From: Candidatus Bathyarchaeota archaeon
Lineage (GTDB): Archaea > Thermoproteota > Bathyarchaeia > Bathyarchaeales > Bathycorpusculaceae
Direction of reading: 5' to 3'
Length of the DNA stretch: 43,010 nucleotides
Assembly (NCBI GenBank): GCA_018396875.1
Contig: JAGTQG010000007.1
Location: forward strand, 1-43,010
Shown here: positions 15,605-34,476 of the stretch, one piece after another
Layout of the letters: every line of letters starts with the position of its first letter
Position numbering within the stretch: position 1 is the first letter of the stretch
Position numbers and translations under genes: made by a program
The notes under the pieces: generated by a model
What the model was told of the DNA's origin: nothing
The model's input: only the letters and a program-made list of their open reading frames with translations
Databases searched by the model: none

Positions 15605-15667
15605 AAAGGATTCCTCCGCAAGCCCTTTCAATAACAACTCATAGACATTTAACAAGTTTACGTTTGG

Positions 15668-15742
15668 TGGGGCTGCCCGGATTTGAACCGGGGTCCCGAG
15701 CGCCCGAGGCTCAGAGCCTAGACCAAGCTAGCCGACAGCCCC
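15668..15742 (-). tRNA. tRNA-Pro (CGG)
   Basis: The minus strand folds into a 75-nt cloverleaf. The acceptor stem is GGGGCTG/CAGCCCC with discriminator A73. The anticodon stem TGAGC/GCTCG (one G-U) closes the loop CCTCGGGC region, which reads C-T-C-G-G-G-C and gives anticodon CGG. The T arm is CCCGG-TTCAAAT-CCGGG. The D stem includes two G-U pairs. No intron and no encoded CCA. Confidence 0.93.
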
Positions 15743-15861
15743 TTCTAGCTTGTTATGCTCAATTGTATGTTTGGTTAGGTTTAATAAAGGTGTTTTCTTA
15801 AACTTTTAAACCCCGTTCAGGGGCTAATAGGTTGTTGTGTTGAAGGGGAGGCTGGTGAATA

Positions 15862-18033
15862 GTGTCTAGTCAGCATCAGCGTTCGCGGGGAATCCGTGTT
15901 TTGAAGGCTGTTTCCTCAGCTGTTCGTCTCCAAATTTTGAATCTCCTTTTTGACAAGGGTGAGCTTTCATACACTGAGCTGATGAACCATTTGAAGATGA
16001 GTCCCAGTCGGGATGCGGGACGTTTCGCCTATCACTTGAAGTTTTTGCTTAAGGCGGATTTGGTGGAAGCTGATGTGGAGTCTAAAAAGTACCGTTTGAC
16101 TGATTTGGGCAAGATGGTGCTTGAGGTTGCCGAGGAAATTGAAAAGAAAGGCTTGAAACCTCAAAGAATTCTTGTCCGCACCTCACGTTTCACGCTTGAG
16201 GAGTTTGACATTAACCGTATAGTGGACGCTCTCGTAAAGGAAGCGGGCATGCCCGTTGAACAGGCTAAAAAGGTTGCTAAGGAGGCGGAAAAACGCCTTT
16301 TAAAGGCCAAGACAAGATATTTGACAGCCCCATTGATAAGGGAGGTTGTAAACGGAATTCTCATTGAAAAGGGTTTGGAAGAATATCGTCACAAACTTAC
16401 CCGTCTAGGGCTACCGGTGCACGATGTCTCTCAAATGCTTGCCAAAGGCAAACCAGTTCACGGTAATTTTAGCTTATGCGAAGAGTTTGGGAAAACTGTT
16501 CTTGGAGAGTACACCCTCTTAAACGTGCTTCCAAGGGACGAGGCAGACGCTCACCTGTCCGGTGAAATCCATCTAGAAGATTTGGGGTTTTGGATTTTGA
16601 AACCAAGCGAGATAGTGCATGATTTAAGGCCTTTCTTAAAAAAGGCAAACGCCTATCTGCCTTTCCATCCACCAAAAAGCTTGGAAGCAGCTTTAAACAT
16701 AACTTTAAATGTTTTACTATATTCAGCGAAAGGGGTTAGTGGCACACAAACCCTAGAATACTTCAACGTTTTTTTGGCACCTTTCCTAAGAGACTTTGAA
16801 AAATCTCATGCTAAAGAGTTGTTACGGCAGTTCATTTTAAACGTAAGTCAACACGCCGACGCGTCCATAAACATTGAGTTGTCCATTCCAAGCTTTCTTG
16901 CAGAAGCCTCCATAGACGCTGCCGATGTTTCGGGGGTTTACGGCGACTTTCAAGATGAGTGCCTGCTTTTGGCAAGGCTTATCCTCGAGGTTTTAGTAGA
17001 GGAAAGCGTGTTTAAACCCCTTTTGAATCCCAAGGTTGTTGTCAAGCTGCGTTCCGAAGCATTTAAAGACGAAGAAATTCTTGACGTTTTACGCAAAGCG
17101 CATCAACTGGCTATGGACGGAAGCGCCATATATTTTGCAAATCTTTTGGGCGAAGATAATAAAGGTACTGTTTTCTCGCCAAGTGGATGTAAACTCACGC
17201 CGAACTTTAAGGGCGACTGGGAAATAGACACTCTACGCACTGGGTTTTTAGGAGTTGCCTCCATTAATATGCCACGAATAGCATATGAATGTGAAGGCGA
17301 CAAAACCAAATTTTTTGATCTTTTGAGGGAAAGGCTTGAAATGGCAACCTGCGCTCTCGAAATCAAATTTAAAACGGTTAAACGGAACAATAAAGGCTTC
17401 CTTTTCCAAGCCATTAATGGAGACTCATATTTTAGACTGGAGAACTCTGCACGTCTAGTAAATTTGATAGGCTTGGAAGAAGCTGCAGAAGCCTTCAACA
17501 GAAAAAGTGTTTATGAAGATGAAAGCTCCTTAAAATTTGCCCTCGAAATCCTCCAGTATGCCTCGGAGTTCCTCCAAAAAAACGAGAAAAGACTCGGCAA
17601 ACGGACGTTATTATCCATCCTCCCGTCCAAAGAGGCATCAGCGAGACTGGCAAAGCAAGATATTGAGCGGTTCGGTGTTGCAAAAACCCGCTTCCATGGA
17701 ACAAGAGATAAACCCTACTACTTGTCTTATCACAAGTTAAGCGCCCAAAACCCAGAGGCCTCATTAAAGAGGCTAGCCTTGATGCAAGGGATTTACAAGC
17801 AGCTTAACGGTGGAACCCTAACAGTCCTAGAACTCGGCGAGGTCGCATACGAGGCTGAAACGCTACTTGCTTTTACGAGGAAACTGGCTGAAAGTCTCAA
17901 TGTACCATTCTTCACTTATGACCGCAACATAACCCACTGCAGTCAATGCCGCAAAAATATGTCTGGCCTTCTCAACAGGTGCCCTAATTGTGGCTCCACT
18001 GGAACCTTAACGGTTTTTAGGCGTTATCCATAA
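15862..18033 (+). CDS. HTH + ATP-cone + NrdD-like protein lacking the glycyl-radical segment
   Basis: This 723-residue protein has four parts. Residues about 8-95 form an ArsR-like winged helix (VSSAVRLQILNLLFDKGELS). Residues about 102-195 form an ATP-cone, the dATP/ATP sensor of ribonucleotide reductases. Residues about 200-690 resemble class III reductase NrdD, with LSGEIHLEDLGFW, GVASINMPRIAYEC and LSILPSKEASARLAKQD. The end is a zinc ribbon CSQC...CPNCG. It stops at TLTVFRRYP, exactly where NrdD continues with RVxGY, the glycyl-radical site, and the usual Cys after the HIHDLD-type motif is not seen. The GTG start follows GGAGG. A catalytically dead, nucleotide-sensing regulator is my inference; annotation as plain NrdD would be misleading. 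Confidence 0.8.
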   Translation: MSSQHQRSRGIRVLKAVSSAVRLQILNLLFDKGELSYTELMNHLKMSPSRDAGRFAYHLKFLLKADLVEADVESKKYRLTDLGKMVLEVAEEIEKKGLKPQRILVRTSRFTLEEFDINRIVDALVKEAGMPVEQAKKVAKEAEKRLLKAKTRYLTAPLIREVVNGILIEKGLEEYRHKLTRLGLPVHDVSQMLAKGKPVHGNFSLCEEFGKTVLGEYTLLNVLPRDEADAHLSGEIHLEDLGFWILKPSEIVHDLRPFLKKANAYLPFHPPKSLEAALNITLNVLLYSAKGVSGTQTLEYFNVFLAPFLRDFEKSHAKELLRQFILNVSQHADASINIELSIPSFLAEASIDAADVSGVYGDFQDECLLLARLILEVLVEESVFKPLLNPKVVVKLRSEAFKDEEILDVLRKAHQLAMDGSAIYFANLLGEDNKGTVFSPSGCKLTPNFKGDWEIDTLRTGFLGVASINMPRIAYECEGDKTKFFDLLRERLEMATCALEIKFKTVKRNNKGFLFQAINGDSYFRLENSARLVNLIGLEEAAEAFNRKSVYEDESSLKFALEILQYASEFLQKNEKRLGKRTLLSILPSKEASARLAKQDIERFGVAKTRFHGTRDKPYYLSYHKLSAQNPEASLKRLALMQGIYKQLNGGTLTVLELGEVAYEAETLLAFTRKLAESLNVPFFTYDRNITHCSQCRKNMSGLLNRCPNCGSTGTLTVFRRYP

Positions 18034-18038
18034 ACGCG

Positions 18039-19075
<1,037 letters not shown>

Positions 19076-20382: not shown

Positions 20383-21324
20383 TTACATGACAAGCTGGAT
20401 TGTTACGAGGGTGGCGATTAGAATTGCCAGCACTTTTAAGGCTCTGGTGTTGAATTTTTGGGCTTCTTCGGCTTTTTTGGCGTCCACGAGTTTCATGATG
20501 TAGACTGACACGGATAGGTTGTAGAGGAATATAGCGTATACGGAGATCATCATTCTGTCTGCCAGTGTTAGGTAGCCGATGGGTGGTATGCCGCTGAGCA
20601 ATGATAGGTGGAAGGCGGATGCCGCCATTAAGGTTGAAACTGCCAAGCCTATTCGTTGGCCGAAGTTTTGTGGGGAAATGAAAAATGTCAATAGTGATAT
20701 GGTTGTTATAACCGATATCGGCAGTACGCTTTTTACAAAGGCTGAAAGCATTGGTCGCTTTAAACATAGGCTGAAAACGTACCTTGAATAGGCTTCATTT
20801 CCATAGGAGTGCTCCACAACTGTTTGCTCAAAGCCCCCTATCTCCCAGCCAGCAACGTTGGCGGTCTCGTCTACCGCCGTCTCTGAGTCGGTTTCAAAGA
20901 CGAGTTGGGATGCGTTGAGCCTTTTGTGTTCAAGCTCAATAGTGAGCGTGTGGGTTTCAAATGGGTACCGTGTGAAGTCAAAGGTCTTCATAAACTCTCC
21001 CCTTATACGGTATTCAATGCGGTTTTCCTCTTGGGCAATTATTTCCGTCTTTGCAGGGGCGCCATTAACGATTTCAAACTCCTTCACGGTGTTTGAATCA
21101 ATCTCAGCCGGGTTGAACTTGAACCATAAGTAAAAGTCTAGGCGGTAGCTGCTGGCAGCCAAATCAATCTTCTCAACGTTTACAAGCCAGACTCCCACAT
21201 AAACCCTGGCACGGTTTAAACTTGTGTAAGTCTGTTGAGCGGCGGCTTTTCCATGTAGAAGTAGCACGAACGAGAGGACAAGGACTGAAAACAAAACGGT
21301 TAATGTCAACTTTTTCAGCTGCAT
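20383..21324 (-). CDS. Pentameric ligand-gated ion channel homologue
   Basis: The 313-residue protein has the layout of prokaryotic Cys-loop relatives such as GLIC and ELIC. A signal peptide (about 1-29) precedes a beta-sandwich extracellular domain to about residue 190. It has LNRARVYVGVWLVNVEKIDL, SSYRLDFYLWFKF, and the Cys-loop equivalent FDFTRYPFETHTLTIELEH, which lacks the two cysteines, as in bacteria. M1 (about 194-216), the pore helix M2 (RIGLAVSTLMAASAFHLSLL), M3 and a final M4 (LKVLAILIATLVTIQLVM) follow. The start ATG has GGTGG upstream, and a TATA-like palindrome CCTTTTTAAAAAGC lies at 21346-21359. Channel activity and ligand are unknown; such proteins are rare in archaea. Confidence 0.9.
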   Translation of the reverse strand: MQLKKLTLTVLFSVLVLSFVLLLHGKAAAQQTYTSLNRARVYVGVWLVNVEKIDLAASSYRLDFYLWFKFNPAEIDSNTVKEFEIVNGAPAKTEIIAQEENRIEYRIRGEFMKTFDFTRYPFETHTLTIELEHKRLNASQLVFETDSETAVDETANVAGWEIGGFEQTVVEHSYGNEAYSRYVFSLCLKRPMLSAFVKSVLPISVITTISLLTFFISPQNFGQRIGLAVSTLMAASAFHLSLLSGIPPIGYLTLADRMMISVYAIFLYNLSVSVYIMKLVDAKKAEEAQKFNTRALKVLAILIATLVTIQLVM

Positions 21325-31399: not shown

Positions 31400-32371
31400 A
31401 TGTCGCTGATGTTAAATTTATCCAAAGAAAAACTTGTCGAGATGTATAGGCTGATGGTTAAAATTCGGCTATTCGAAGAGAAAGTTTTCGAGCTTTACGC
31501 TCAAAATCTTGTTCCGGGAACAATACACTTATACACTGGACAAGAGGCCGTTGCTGTTGGCGTTTGCAGCGCCCTGAGAAAAGATGATTATATTACCAGC
31601 ACACATCGAGGGCACGGCCATTGTATTGCAAAAGGCGCAGATGTCAAACGTGTCATGGCTGAAATTTTAGGAAAAAAGACCGGCTACTGTAAGGGCAAGG
31701 GTGGCTCAATGCACATCGCGGACTTCAGCATAGGCATGCTTGGTGCAACAGCCGTTGTGGGTGCTGGCATACCCATAGCTGCTGGAGCTGGCTTGTCAAT
31801 AAAGCTTCGAGGAACAGACCAGGTTGTAGCGTGTTTCTTCGGCGACGGAGCCTCAAATCAAGGAACATTCCACGAGGGCATCAACATGGCGGCAATATGG
31901 AGCTTGCCAGTCATATTTGTCTGCGAAAACAACTTGTATGCCATGGGAACTCGTCAGTCGATGGTTATGCGGATAGAAAACATCGCTGACAGAGCCGCTG
32001 CCTACGGGATTCCGGGGGTTGTTGTGGATGGAAATGATGTTTTGGCTGTTTATGAAGCCACGTCGAAAGCGGCTGAAAGGGCGCGGAAAGGCGAGGGACC
32101 AACACTTATTGAATGTAAGACTTACAGGCATAGGGGGCATTCCCGCGTGGATCCAGCTAAATACAGACCCAGAGAAGAGGTTGAGGCTTGGCTTGCTAAG
32201 GATCCAATAAAAAGGTTTAGAGAGAAACTTCTAGGATTAAACGTTCTAACGGAGGCTGAAATTCAACAAATTGATAGGGAGGTGGCTGCTGAAATCGAGG
32301 AGGCTGTCCGATACGCCATGGAAAGCCCATACCCTGCGCCTGAAGAAGCTTTAGAAGACGTTTACGCGTGA
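31400..32371 (+). CDS. 2-oxoacid/acetoin dehydrogenase E1 component, alpha subunit
   Basis: This 323-residue thiamine-diphosphate subunit decarboxylates a 2-oxoacid (or cleaves acetoin) with E1beta. It has MYRLMVKIRLFEEKVFEL, TGQEAVAVGVCSALRKDDYI, THRGHGHCIAKG, KTGYCKGKGGSMHIAD and the cofactor/Mg motif CFFGDGASNQGTFHEGINMA. ENNLYAMGTRQS and ECKTYRHRGHSRVDP follow. All are conserved in pyruvate dehydrogenase and acetoin dehydrogenase E1alpha. It leads a tight operon with E1beta (14-base gap) and E2 (no gap). GAGTGAG lies upstream of the ATG. The complex type cannot be settled from this subunit alone. Confidence 0.9.
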   Translation: MSLMLNLSKEKLVEMYRLMVKIRLFEEKVFELYAQNLVPGTIHLYTGQEAVAVGVCSALRKDDYITSTHRGHGHCIAKGADVKRVMAEILGKKTGYCKGKGGSMHIADFSIGMLGATAVVGAGIPIAAGAGLSIKLRGTDQVVACFFGDGASNQGTFHEGINMAAIWSLPVIFVCENNLYAMGTRQSMVMRIENIADRAAAYGIPGVVVDGNDVLAVYEATSKAAERARKGEGPTLIECKTYRHRGHSRVDPAKYRPREEVEAWLAKDPIKRFREKLLGLNVLTEAEIQQIDREVAAEIEEAVRYAMESPYPAPEEALEDVYA

Positions 32372-32385
32372 TGGAGGATTAGGAC

Positions 32386-33360
32386 GTGAGAAGAATAACC
32401 TATCGGGAAGCGTTGCGCGAAGCCTTGCGAGAGGAAATGCGAAGGGACCCAACGGTTTTCCTTTTAGGCGAGGATATTGGCAGATACTGGGGTGGAGCCT
32501 TCAAGGTGACGGAAGGTTTAGCCGAAGAGTTTGGAGATGAACGGGTTCGAGACACGCCTATATCTGAATCAGCCATAATTGGCGTGGCTGTTGGGGCAGC
32601 CATAACCGGAATGCGGCCAGTTGCCGAAATAATGTTTGGAGACTTAACCGCCCTAGCCATGGACCAGATAGCCAACCAAGCGGCAAAGCTTCGATACATG
32701 TTTGGGGGACAGGTTAAAGTGCCCCTTGTAATTAGGACTCCTTTTGGCGGCGGCGTGAACATTGCTGCACATCACTCGCAATGTCTGGAAGCTTGGTTTA
32801 TGCATGTTCCGGGCTTGTATGTGGCTGTTCCATCAACGCCTTACGATGCGAAAGGCTTGTTGAAAAGCGCCATTCGAGGAAACAACCCGGTAATCTTCTG
32901 CGAACACAAGCTGCTCTACCCCTTCGAGGGAGAAGTCCCGGAGGAGGATTACACAATACCCTTCGGTGTGGCTGACGTCAAAAGGGAGGGAGAAGACGTC
33001 ACCGTTGTGGCTACACTTTACATGGTTCACAAAGCTTTGAAGGCTGCTGAAACCCTCGCCAAAGAGGGCATAAGCGTTGAGGTTGTAGATCCAAGAACCC
33101 TAACGCCATTAGATAAAAAAACGATAGTAAATTCGGTGAAGAAAACTGGTAGGCTTGTTGTCGTCAGCGAGGACTGCAAAACAGCTGGTGTGACGGCGGA
33201 AATAGCCGCCATAGTAGCTGAGGAAGCCATAGACTATTTGGATGCTCCAATAAGGCGAGTGGCTGAACCGGATACGCCAATACCTTTCAGTCCACCCTTG
33301 GAGCAGTATGTGATTCCAGACGAGAAGGCGATAATACGGGCTGTTAAGGAGATAGCCTAA
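32386..33360 (+). CDS. 2-oxoacid/acetoin dehydrogenase E1 component, beta subunit
   Basis: This 324-residue E1beta completes the active site with E1alpha. It begins ITYREALREALREEM and contains LLGEDIGRYWGGAFKVTEGL, RDTPISESAIIGVAVGAA, PVAEIMFGDLTALAMDQI, RTPFGGGVNIAAHHSQCLE, and the substrate-region residues AWFMHVPGLYVAVPSTPYDAK. The final domain has VVDPRTLTPLDKKTI and RVAEPDTPIPFSPPLEQYV. The start is GTG 32386, with GGAGGAT about seven bases upstream. The stop is directly followed by the E2 ATG. Confidence 0.92.
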   Translation: MRRITYREALREALREEMRRDPTVFLLGEDIGRYWGGAFKVTEGLAEEFGDERVRDTPISESAIIGVAVGAAITGMRPVAEIMFGDLTALAMDQIANQAAKLRYMFGGQVKVPLVIRTPFGGGVNIAAHHSQCLEAWFMHVPGLYVAVPSTPYDAKGLLKSAIRGNNPVIFCEHKLLYPFEGEVPEEDYTIPFGVADVKREGEDVTVVATLYMVHKALKAAETLAKEGISVEVVDPRTLTPLDKKTIVNSVKKTGRLVVVSEDCKTAGVTAEIAAIVAEEAIDYLDAPIRRVAEPDTPIPFSPPLEQYVIPDEKAIIRAVKEIA

Positions 33361-34476
33361 ATGGTTACGAAGGTTGTCATGCCAAAGCTCAGCTTAACCA
33401 TGAAAACTGGAAGCGTTGGCAAATGGTACAAACGTGAAGGCGAAACCGTTGAAAAGGGCGAGCCAATAGTTGAAATAATTTCGGAAAAAGCCACCTACGA
33501 CTTGGAGGCGCCAGCCTCCGGTGTGCTGCGAAAAATCTTTGTAAAAGAAGGAGAAGAGGCGCCTGTGGACGCTGTAATAGCCATAATTGCTGCGCCAGAC
33601 GAGCAGATTCCAACAGAAGAAGCATTTGCGGCTAAAACTCCTGAAGAAGTTGCCGAAGCCAAAGAACGGGTTTTAGCCTCTCCAGCTGCAAAACGCCTAG
33701 CAAGGGAGTATGGGGTAGACCTCTCGCTTGTTAAGGGCACGGGTCCCGGAGGGCGGATAGTTGAAGACGATGTTAGACGTTTCATTGAAGAGTCAAGGGG
33801 GTTTATGCCAAAAGTTAAGGAGGTTATACCTCTAAGCGGTTATAGGAAGACCACTGCGGAAAAAGTTTCAGCGAGTTTTAGGACTGCTCCCCACAGCACT
33901 GTTTTCATGAATGTTGACTTCACAGAAGCCGCCAAAATTCATGAGACGCTCCAAGTGTCCTACACGGCTATCATCGTGGCGGCTGTTGCGAAGGCTTTAG
34001 CTGAAAATCCAGTTTTAAACTCAACTATTGAGGGAGATAAGATCAAGATTTTCGAAGACATAAACGTTGGAGTGGCGGTAGCGACAGACCACGGTCTAGT
34101 GGTTCCAGTTATCCACAACGCCGACAAGAAATCCCTGAAAGAGATAGACGTGGTCCTCAAAGACTTAACAGAAAAAGCTAGAGAAGGTAGACTGAAAAAA
34201 GAGGAAATAAATGGTGGAACCTTCACAGTTTCAAACTTGGGCATGTTTGACGTGGAATTCTTTACACCTATCATAAACCCGCCAGAAGCTGCCATCTTAG
34301 GCGTTGGAAAAATCTTTGAAAAACCAACGTTATCTGCTGATGGAAAAATAGTTTTCAAGCCTTTCGTAACGCTAAGCCTTTCATACGACCACAGAATAGT
34401 CGACGGAGTTCCAGCCGCCAAGTTCCTTCAAAGCGTTAAACGCCACCTAGAAGCCCCAAGCCCTCTGCAAGGCTAG
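33361..34476 (+). CDS. Dihydrolipoamide acyltransferase (E2)
   Basis: This 371-residue E2 forms the core of the complex. Residues 1-80 are a lipoyl domain; the lipoylated Lys is in ISEKATYDLEAP (family: ETDKA). A linker with Ala/Glu leads to the peripheral-subunit-binding domain (SPAAKRLAREYGVDLSLVKG, then GTGPGGRIVEDDVRRF). The catalytic domain runs from about residue 155, with TFTVSNLGMFDVEFFTPI and the active-site SYDHRIVDGVPAAKFL. E3 (dihydrolipoamide dehydrogenase) is not encoded here. The stop TAG overlaps the minus-strand membrane gene's stop by four bases. Confidence 0.93.
   Translation: MVTKVVMPKLSLTMKTGSVGKWYKREGETVEKGEPIVEIISEKATYDLEAPASGVLRKIFVKEGEEAPVDAVIAIIAAPDEQIPTEEAFAAKTPEEVAEAKERVLASPAAKRLAREYGVDLSLVKGTGPGGRIVEDDVRRFIEESRGFMPKVKEVIPLSGYRKTTAEKVSASFRTAPHSTVFMNVDFTEAAKIHETLQVSYTAIIVAAVAKALAENPVLNSTIEGDKIKIFEDINVGVAVATDHGLVVPVIHNADKKSLKEIDVVLKDLTEKAREGRLKKEEINGGTFTVSNLGMFDVEFFTPIINPPEAAILGVGKIFEKPTLSADGKIVFKPFVTLSLSYDHRIVDGVPAAKFLQSVKRHLEAPSPLQG

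Follow-up and report, generated by a model that had tools for sequence, protein, structure and literature searches.

The window, that is, the whole stretch of 43,010 nucleotides of bathyarchaeal DNA that was analysed, encodes a protein in which an archaeal winged helix and an ATP-cone precede a degenerate class III ribonucleotide reductase (RNR) body; with a probability of roughly 0.7, it is a transcription regulator of RNR genes that was derived from a complete class III reductase (NrdD), with one early origin in the Thermoproteota. This reading is based on linkage to RNR genes, on the loss of catalytic residues, on the combination of winged helix and cone, and on the scarcity of NrdR in genomes that carry the gene; the family to which the protein belongs probably represents a switch for DNA-precursor synthesis that is widespread but undescribed. 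In bacteria, RNR genes are repressed by NrdR, a protein of 140–220 amino acids that consists of a zinc ribbon and an ATP-cone. NrdR is rare in archaea (PMC12176259), and archaeal RNR regulation is consequently largely open. If the proposed function is correct, this gap in archaeal RNR control would be filled in most Bathyarchaeota and in ammonia oxidisers; such genes should then be annotated as anaerobic reductases only with caution when they occur in aerobic organisms; and the family would provide a rare example of an essential enzyme that became a transcription factor for the enzyme replacing it, with intermediate stages of decay that can still be seen.

Domain order and predicted fold

The first-pass annotation had read the protein as a helix-turn-helix domain, an ATP-cone, a NrdD-like body and a zinc ribbon, an order that is confirmed by Pfam matches and by orthologue alignment (Table 1). 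The HTH_5 and DUF7347 models both match residues 13–88, each above its own cut-off, and eight winged-helix residues (D51, A52, G53, F55, A56, Y57, H58, and L59) are invariant among 31 aligned orthologues. The NRDD match, also above cut-off, covers residues 209–721 and profile positions 16–538 of 562; the score for the NCBIfam NrdD equivalog TIGR02487, 245.8 bits, is below the cut-off of 326.35. Three zinc ribbon cysteines (C693, C707, and C710) are conserved in 100% of 64 aligned relatives. The structure predicted by AlphaFold2 with the 31 orthologues as input has a mean pLDDT of 84.7, and its best Foldseek matches are the solved NrdDs of S. thermophilus, P. copri, T. maritima and T4, with TM-scores of up to 0.75 (normalised to the target); the zinc ribbon features and, as predicted by this model, the NrdD barrel fold are present.

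The start codon fits the start positions seen for close relatives in the orthologue alignment. At the other end, the protein had been described as stopping right after RR and before the glycyl-radical loop; the end ahead of the loop stands, but the last residues are GTLTVFRRYP, immediately before the loop position and two residues past RR. The convergent pyrB gene ends at 18039, five bases away, as had been stated. A frameshift or truncation is ruled out, since near orthologues stop at the same residue; this shared end point upholds the earlier view that nothing was cut off downstream.

Table 1. Features of the gene and of its upstream region, in window coordinates.
Feature	Position	Strand	Details
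Conserved intergenic block between tRNA-Pro and the gene	15774..15814	.	TATA-like CTTTTAAAC at 15803-15811; possible control region
Gene for the winged helix, ATP-cone and dead NrdD protein	15862..18033	+	723 aa; GTG start, TAA stop
Archaeal winged helix-turn-helix (aa 10-95)	15889..16146	+	PF01022, 33.8 bits (cut-off 22); PF24038, 33.6 bits (cut-off 27.6)
ATP-cone (aa ~104-190)	16171..16431	+	PF03477, 28.1 bits (cut-off 25.8), match at aa 105-175
NrdD-like ten-stranded barrel body (aa 209-685), catalytically degenerate	16486..17916	+	PF13597, 234.6 bits
Degenerate substrate/reduction site	16570..16611	+	HLEDLG replaces HIHDLG; E250 replaces the reductive Cys
Codon of C443, finger-loop (thiyl radical) position	17188..17190	+	SPSGCKL; by alignment; Cys here, not conserved in relatives
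Zinc ribbon	17938..17991	+	C693-C696...C707-C710; four Cys invariant in the orthologue alignment
C-terminal RYP-stop	18022..18033	+	NrdD runs on here into the glycyl-radical loop (RVVGYLRP...); comparison with orthologues and NrdD

Two other loci within the window were noted in passing. A 313-residue protein (20383–21324, minus strand) that begins with a signal-like segment and has a soluble domain and some four membrane segments recalls, by eye, pentameric ligand-gated channels and has no Pfam match; the plus strand at 31400–34476 carries genes of a 2-oxoacid dehydrogenase complex (E1 alpha, apparently E1 beta, and E2), with no E3 gene seen within the window.

Gene neighbourhood and linkage to ribonucleotide reductases

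The degenerate gene is located directly 5′ of a same-strand, glycyl-bearing nrdD in the bathyarchaeal families f4 (3 of 3), f6 (9 of 11), and f7 (9 of 10), and also in f19 (2 of 2), f20 (1 of 1), and f2 (1 of 3). In families f25, f50, and f53 it lies directly 5′ of the class II gene nrdJ in 47 of 48 genomes; in the remaining genome, a fragmented assembly, the two genes are found on separate contigs. These three families are identified as ammonia oxidisers because archaeal AmoA was found in all 11 of their genomes that were tested. The class II assignment is exemplified by locus L157, where the neighbour of the degenerate gene scored 727.8 bits against NrdJ_Z (cut-off 399.95), and the gene also precedes a class II RNR in one bathyarchaeal genome of f17. 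The ammonia oxidisers tested yielded no NRDD match besides the degenerate protein, hence no NrdD, and no NrdR; across 55 genomes, NrdR (TIGR00244) exceeded its cut-off in only five, four of them from f1 and the fifth being G058. A catalytic role, or that of a NrdD subunit, would hardly account for linkage to two RNR classes, which is expected of an RNR regulator; the gene order beside nrdD and nrdJ, together with the lack of NrdR in most carriers tested, lends support to the regulatory role that had been suggested initially.

Several of these loci show further features. At locus L041, a glutaredoxin/NrdH-like open reading frame of 101 aa (L041:9986–10291), with similar sequence in L038–L043 and thus in further f4 and f6 loci, lies between the degenerate gene and nrdD and is a probable dedicated reductant for the adjacent NrdD. 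At L044 (genome G060), the adjoining nrdD is of the other subtype, 69% identical to the NrdD of the window genome, and the redoxin reading frame ahead of it looks truncated, which suggests in-place replacement of nrdD. Among f25 ammonia oxidisers, an inverted repeat that reads TATGAAGTTCATA in several species is conserved upstream of nrdJ; it lies between this gene and the degenerate gene in L157, L159, and L211–L216 and is a candidate operator.

The same adjacency to active RNR genes would also fit a regulatory pseudo-subunit, a dead NrdD that attaches to the active reductase and adjusts its stability or allosteric behaviour. NrdD forms dimers, and oligomerisation of RNRs is driven by ATP-cones (PMC11226230). 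The winged helix might be an oligomerisation element and not a DNA-binding one, a possibility that counts against an RNR regulator. We regard this explanation as unlikely. The linkage is strongest in the ammonia oxidisers, whose only RNR found is class II and not of the ancestor's class; few parts of the protein are as well conserved as the winged helix; and many bathyarchaeal copies (f10, f13, f15, f17) are distant from any nrdD or occur in genomes where nrdD was not detected.

In the window's own genome the degenerate gene is next to no RNR gene, and it is unlinked throughout family f1. It is instead divergent from a tRNA-Pro gene (15665–15742, minus strand), and the conserved block between the two genes was seen in L003, L053–L057, and L059. 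The nrdD gene of this genome is part of an nrdR-nrdD-nrdG cassette with its own NrdR, as in f1 generally, a bacterial-type arrangement that is unusual for archaea; a class II RNR is encoded as well. NrdR-box-like palindromes (e.g., CACTACATTTAGTG) were observed upstream of nrdR in several f1 genomes (L210, L200–L209). Inspection by eye of f1, the nrdD-linked families, and the ammonia oxidisers revealed no convincing operator common to the promoter of the degenerate gene and RNR promoters. TGATC elements that recur 5′ of the gene in several ammonia oxidisers were not taken for an operator, as GATC is frequent throughout these loci.

With its f1 copies unlinked to RNR genes, NrdR covering nrdD in these genomes, and a tRNA-Pro gene as divergent neighbour, the protein could be a nucleotide-responsive regulator with mainly non-RNR targets, such as a broader regulon for replication or energy, and its linkage to RNR genes would be historical. 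This alternative appears slightly less probable than a pseudo-subunit; the linkage involves two RNR classes in distant lineages, and is not easily explained by inheritance of one ancestral arrangement. Regulation of RNR genes remains the preferred reading. Its extension to the phylum, such that in much of the Thermoproteota, ammonia oxidisers included, a transcription factor with a dead RNR as its sensor controls DNA-precursor synthesis for two RNR classes in place of the NrdR that is rare in archaea, is held at somewhat better than even odds.

Catalytic residues, distribution and selection

Conservation was assessed in an alignment of 64 relatives of the window protein (itself included in this number) with 27 archaeal, glycyl-bearing NrdDs; the roles of the catalytic residues follow published work on NrdD (PMC11226230, PMC4493059). 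Eighty columns are invariant in the 27 NrdDs, of which 21, including zinc cysteines, some cone residues, and structural glycines and prolines, are retained in at least 90% of the relatives, and 22 in fewer than 10%. The cysteine of the reductive half-reaction (Cys79 in T4, Cys125 in T. maritima; PMC4493059) is found in 0% of the relatives and is E250 in the window protein; the second histidine of the HxHD triphosphate motif (H165) is kept in 6%, the asparagines of the NxN flap in 3% and 5%, and finger-loop C379 in 0%. Finger-loop position C380 is a cysteine in 19% (12 of 64), the window protein among them, and crystals of T. maritima NrdD likewise display a residue other than cysteine at the thiyl position of the finger loop (PMC4493059). 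The radical glycine persists in 6% and the following tyrosine in 2%, neither of them in the window protein.

These results correct the first-pass annotation in one respect and extend it in another. The cysteine missing after the HIHDLD motif had been taken for that of the thiyl radical; its position, E250, is that of the reductive cysteine, and the thiyl position, C443, is still a cysteine here, though in few other members of the family. The losses of the second HxHD histidine, the NxN flap, and C379 had not been listed previously. The idea of a dead reductase is borne out by family-wide loss of catalytic residues. A degraded form of the loop (SRVSAKHLP, SRSSATYIPLDLW, GRITGRFLPLKWW) still follows the zinc ribbon in more distant members but is gone in the window's family, and at the former reductive-cysteine site the dead family has a new conserved motif, W-I/L-L-K/R-P....HD-L/I-R, that speaks for a new function. 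The alignment thus supports the conclusion that the window protein and its family are CATALYTICALLY dead as reductases.

Pyruvate formate-lyase can be rescued by a separate glycyl-radical protein, YfiD/GrcA. An active class III reductase that receives its glycyl radical in a similar manner would account for the retained fold, zinc ribbon, and C443 at the finger loop, but not for the near-complete loss of the reductive cysteine, the HxHD histidine and the NxN flap, nor for the presence of the gene in AmoA-positive genomes without another NRDD match; it is very improbable. A pairing glycyl-radical module elsewhere, or catalytic cysteines identified by alignment, had been named as evidence that would speak against a dead reductase. 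The PF01228 glycyl-radical domain, a model that may miss the NrdD-type loop, was not found in 12 carrier genomes, and the alignment yielded no conserved catalytic set in the family.

Of 61 near relatives, 60 have a match, in most cases with a full-length orthologue of 42–75% identity. When the N-terminal 209 residues of the window protein served as query, 154 of 163 genomes of the class (Bathyarchaeota) and 163 of 250 of the phylum gave a match, counts that include a minority of matches that are weak or fall in the cone of ordinary NrdDs. The matches usually sit on a long open frame. Mean identity to relatives is 75% for the winged helix, 73% for the cone, and 46% for the body. Compared with the nearest relative, dN is 0.034 and dS 1.35 for winged helix and cone, and 0.158 and 2.10 for the whole gene (dS being close to saturation); as judged from these substitution rates, the gene is under strong purifying selection. 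In a quick, midpoint-rooted tree with long branches, dead and active NrdDs are split by one branch with 100% SH-aLRT support, which is consistent with one origin of the dead family. That the gene is a decaying relic or pseudogene of nrdD, as the vanished catalytic residues and glycyl loop might suggest, is the least probable explanation and is rejected: the gene is kept across the phylum, its frames are open, dN is much lower than dS, and a new motif occupies the reductive-cysteine site.

Other unusual nrdD genes were encountered in the genomes examined. Real nrdD genes in open frames of approximately 1000 to 2800 amino acids with a split NRDD match (G024:C8, G028:C28, G052:C112 and C157, G074:C9, G179:C17, G186:C7, G232:C28, G297:C50) probably contain inteins, several of them in G186. 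NRDD matches that end at profile position ~477–500 of 562 and miss the C-terminal part (G340:C7:73140–74651, G331:C22:26303–27787, G082:C17:24623–26161) are possibly other degenerate NrdDs.

Proposed mechanism and comparison with known systems

Residues E113 and F115 of the cone are conserved and align by eye with the adenine-recognising E56 and F58 of the Streptomyces coelicolor NrdR, for which the adenine and phosphate contacts have been described (PMC9110341). The phosphate-contacting Lys-Arg pair of the NrdR cone is replaced by T107-S108 in the window protein, a Thr-Ser type that is common to the adjoining active NrdD2; in a cone without this pair, nucleotide binding is not assured. The ATP-cones of NrdD and NrdR switch oligomeric state upon binding ATP or dATP (PMC11226230, PMC9110341).

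We infer DNA binding, ligand, dimerisation, and the sign of regulation in the following scheme. An ancestral NrdD would have acquired an N-terminal archaeal winged helix and lost catalysis, so that its body and zinc ribbon would now provide a scaffold on which the protein dimerises. The cone would sense ATP versus dATP, as in NrdD and NrdR, and the body that was kept may respond to the allosteric signals that the active enzyme recognises. A ligand-driven rearrangement of the dimer would then alter the grip of the paired winged helices on the RNR gene promoter, with the promoter of the degenerate gene itself probably a target too; the outcome would be feedback control, most likely repression at high dATP.

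Comparison with NrdR reveals a similar logic in a different architecture, as the first-pass annotation had surmised: in both cases an ATP-cone is coupled to a DNA-binding domain, and in relatives there is linkage to RNR genes of more than one class. Yet a winged helix takes the place of the zinc ribbon as DNA-binding domain, an entire degenerate NrdD is fused to it, the Lys-Arg pair that contacts phosphates is missing from the cone, and the NCBIfam search gave no TIGR00244 match for the window protein. With NrdD (PF13597/TIGR02487) the protein shares ATP-cone, barrel fold, and zinc ribbon, indicating clear common descent; it differs by its score below the TIGR02487 cut-off, by the loss of glycyl loop, reductive cysteine, HxHD and NxN, and by the added winged helix. 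The N-terminal domain resembles archaeal ArsR-like winged-helix regulators in exceeding the HTH_5 and DUF7347 cut-offs; unlike these regulators, the protein falls below the NF033788 metalloregulator cut-off and is joined to a cone and a dead enzyme. We know of no case in which an RNR body serves as the sensor of a regulator, and a search of the open-access literature (most subscription journals lying outside it) found no description of such a protein. In a wider sense, BirA, PutA, and the ROK family are enzyme-derived regulators in which a DNA-binding domain is fused to an enzyme body that acts as sensor; the window protein likewise combines a DNA-binding domain with an enzyme body, in this case a dead RNR.
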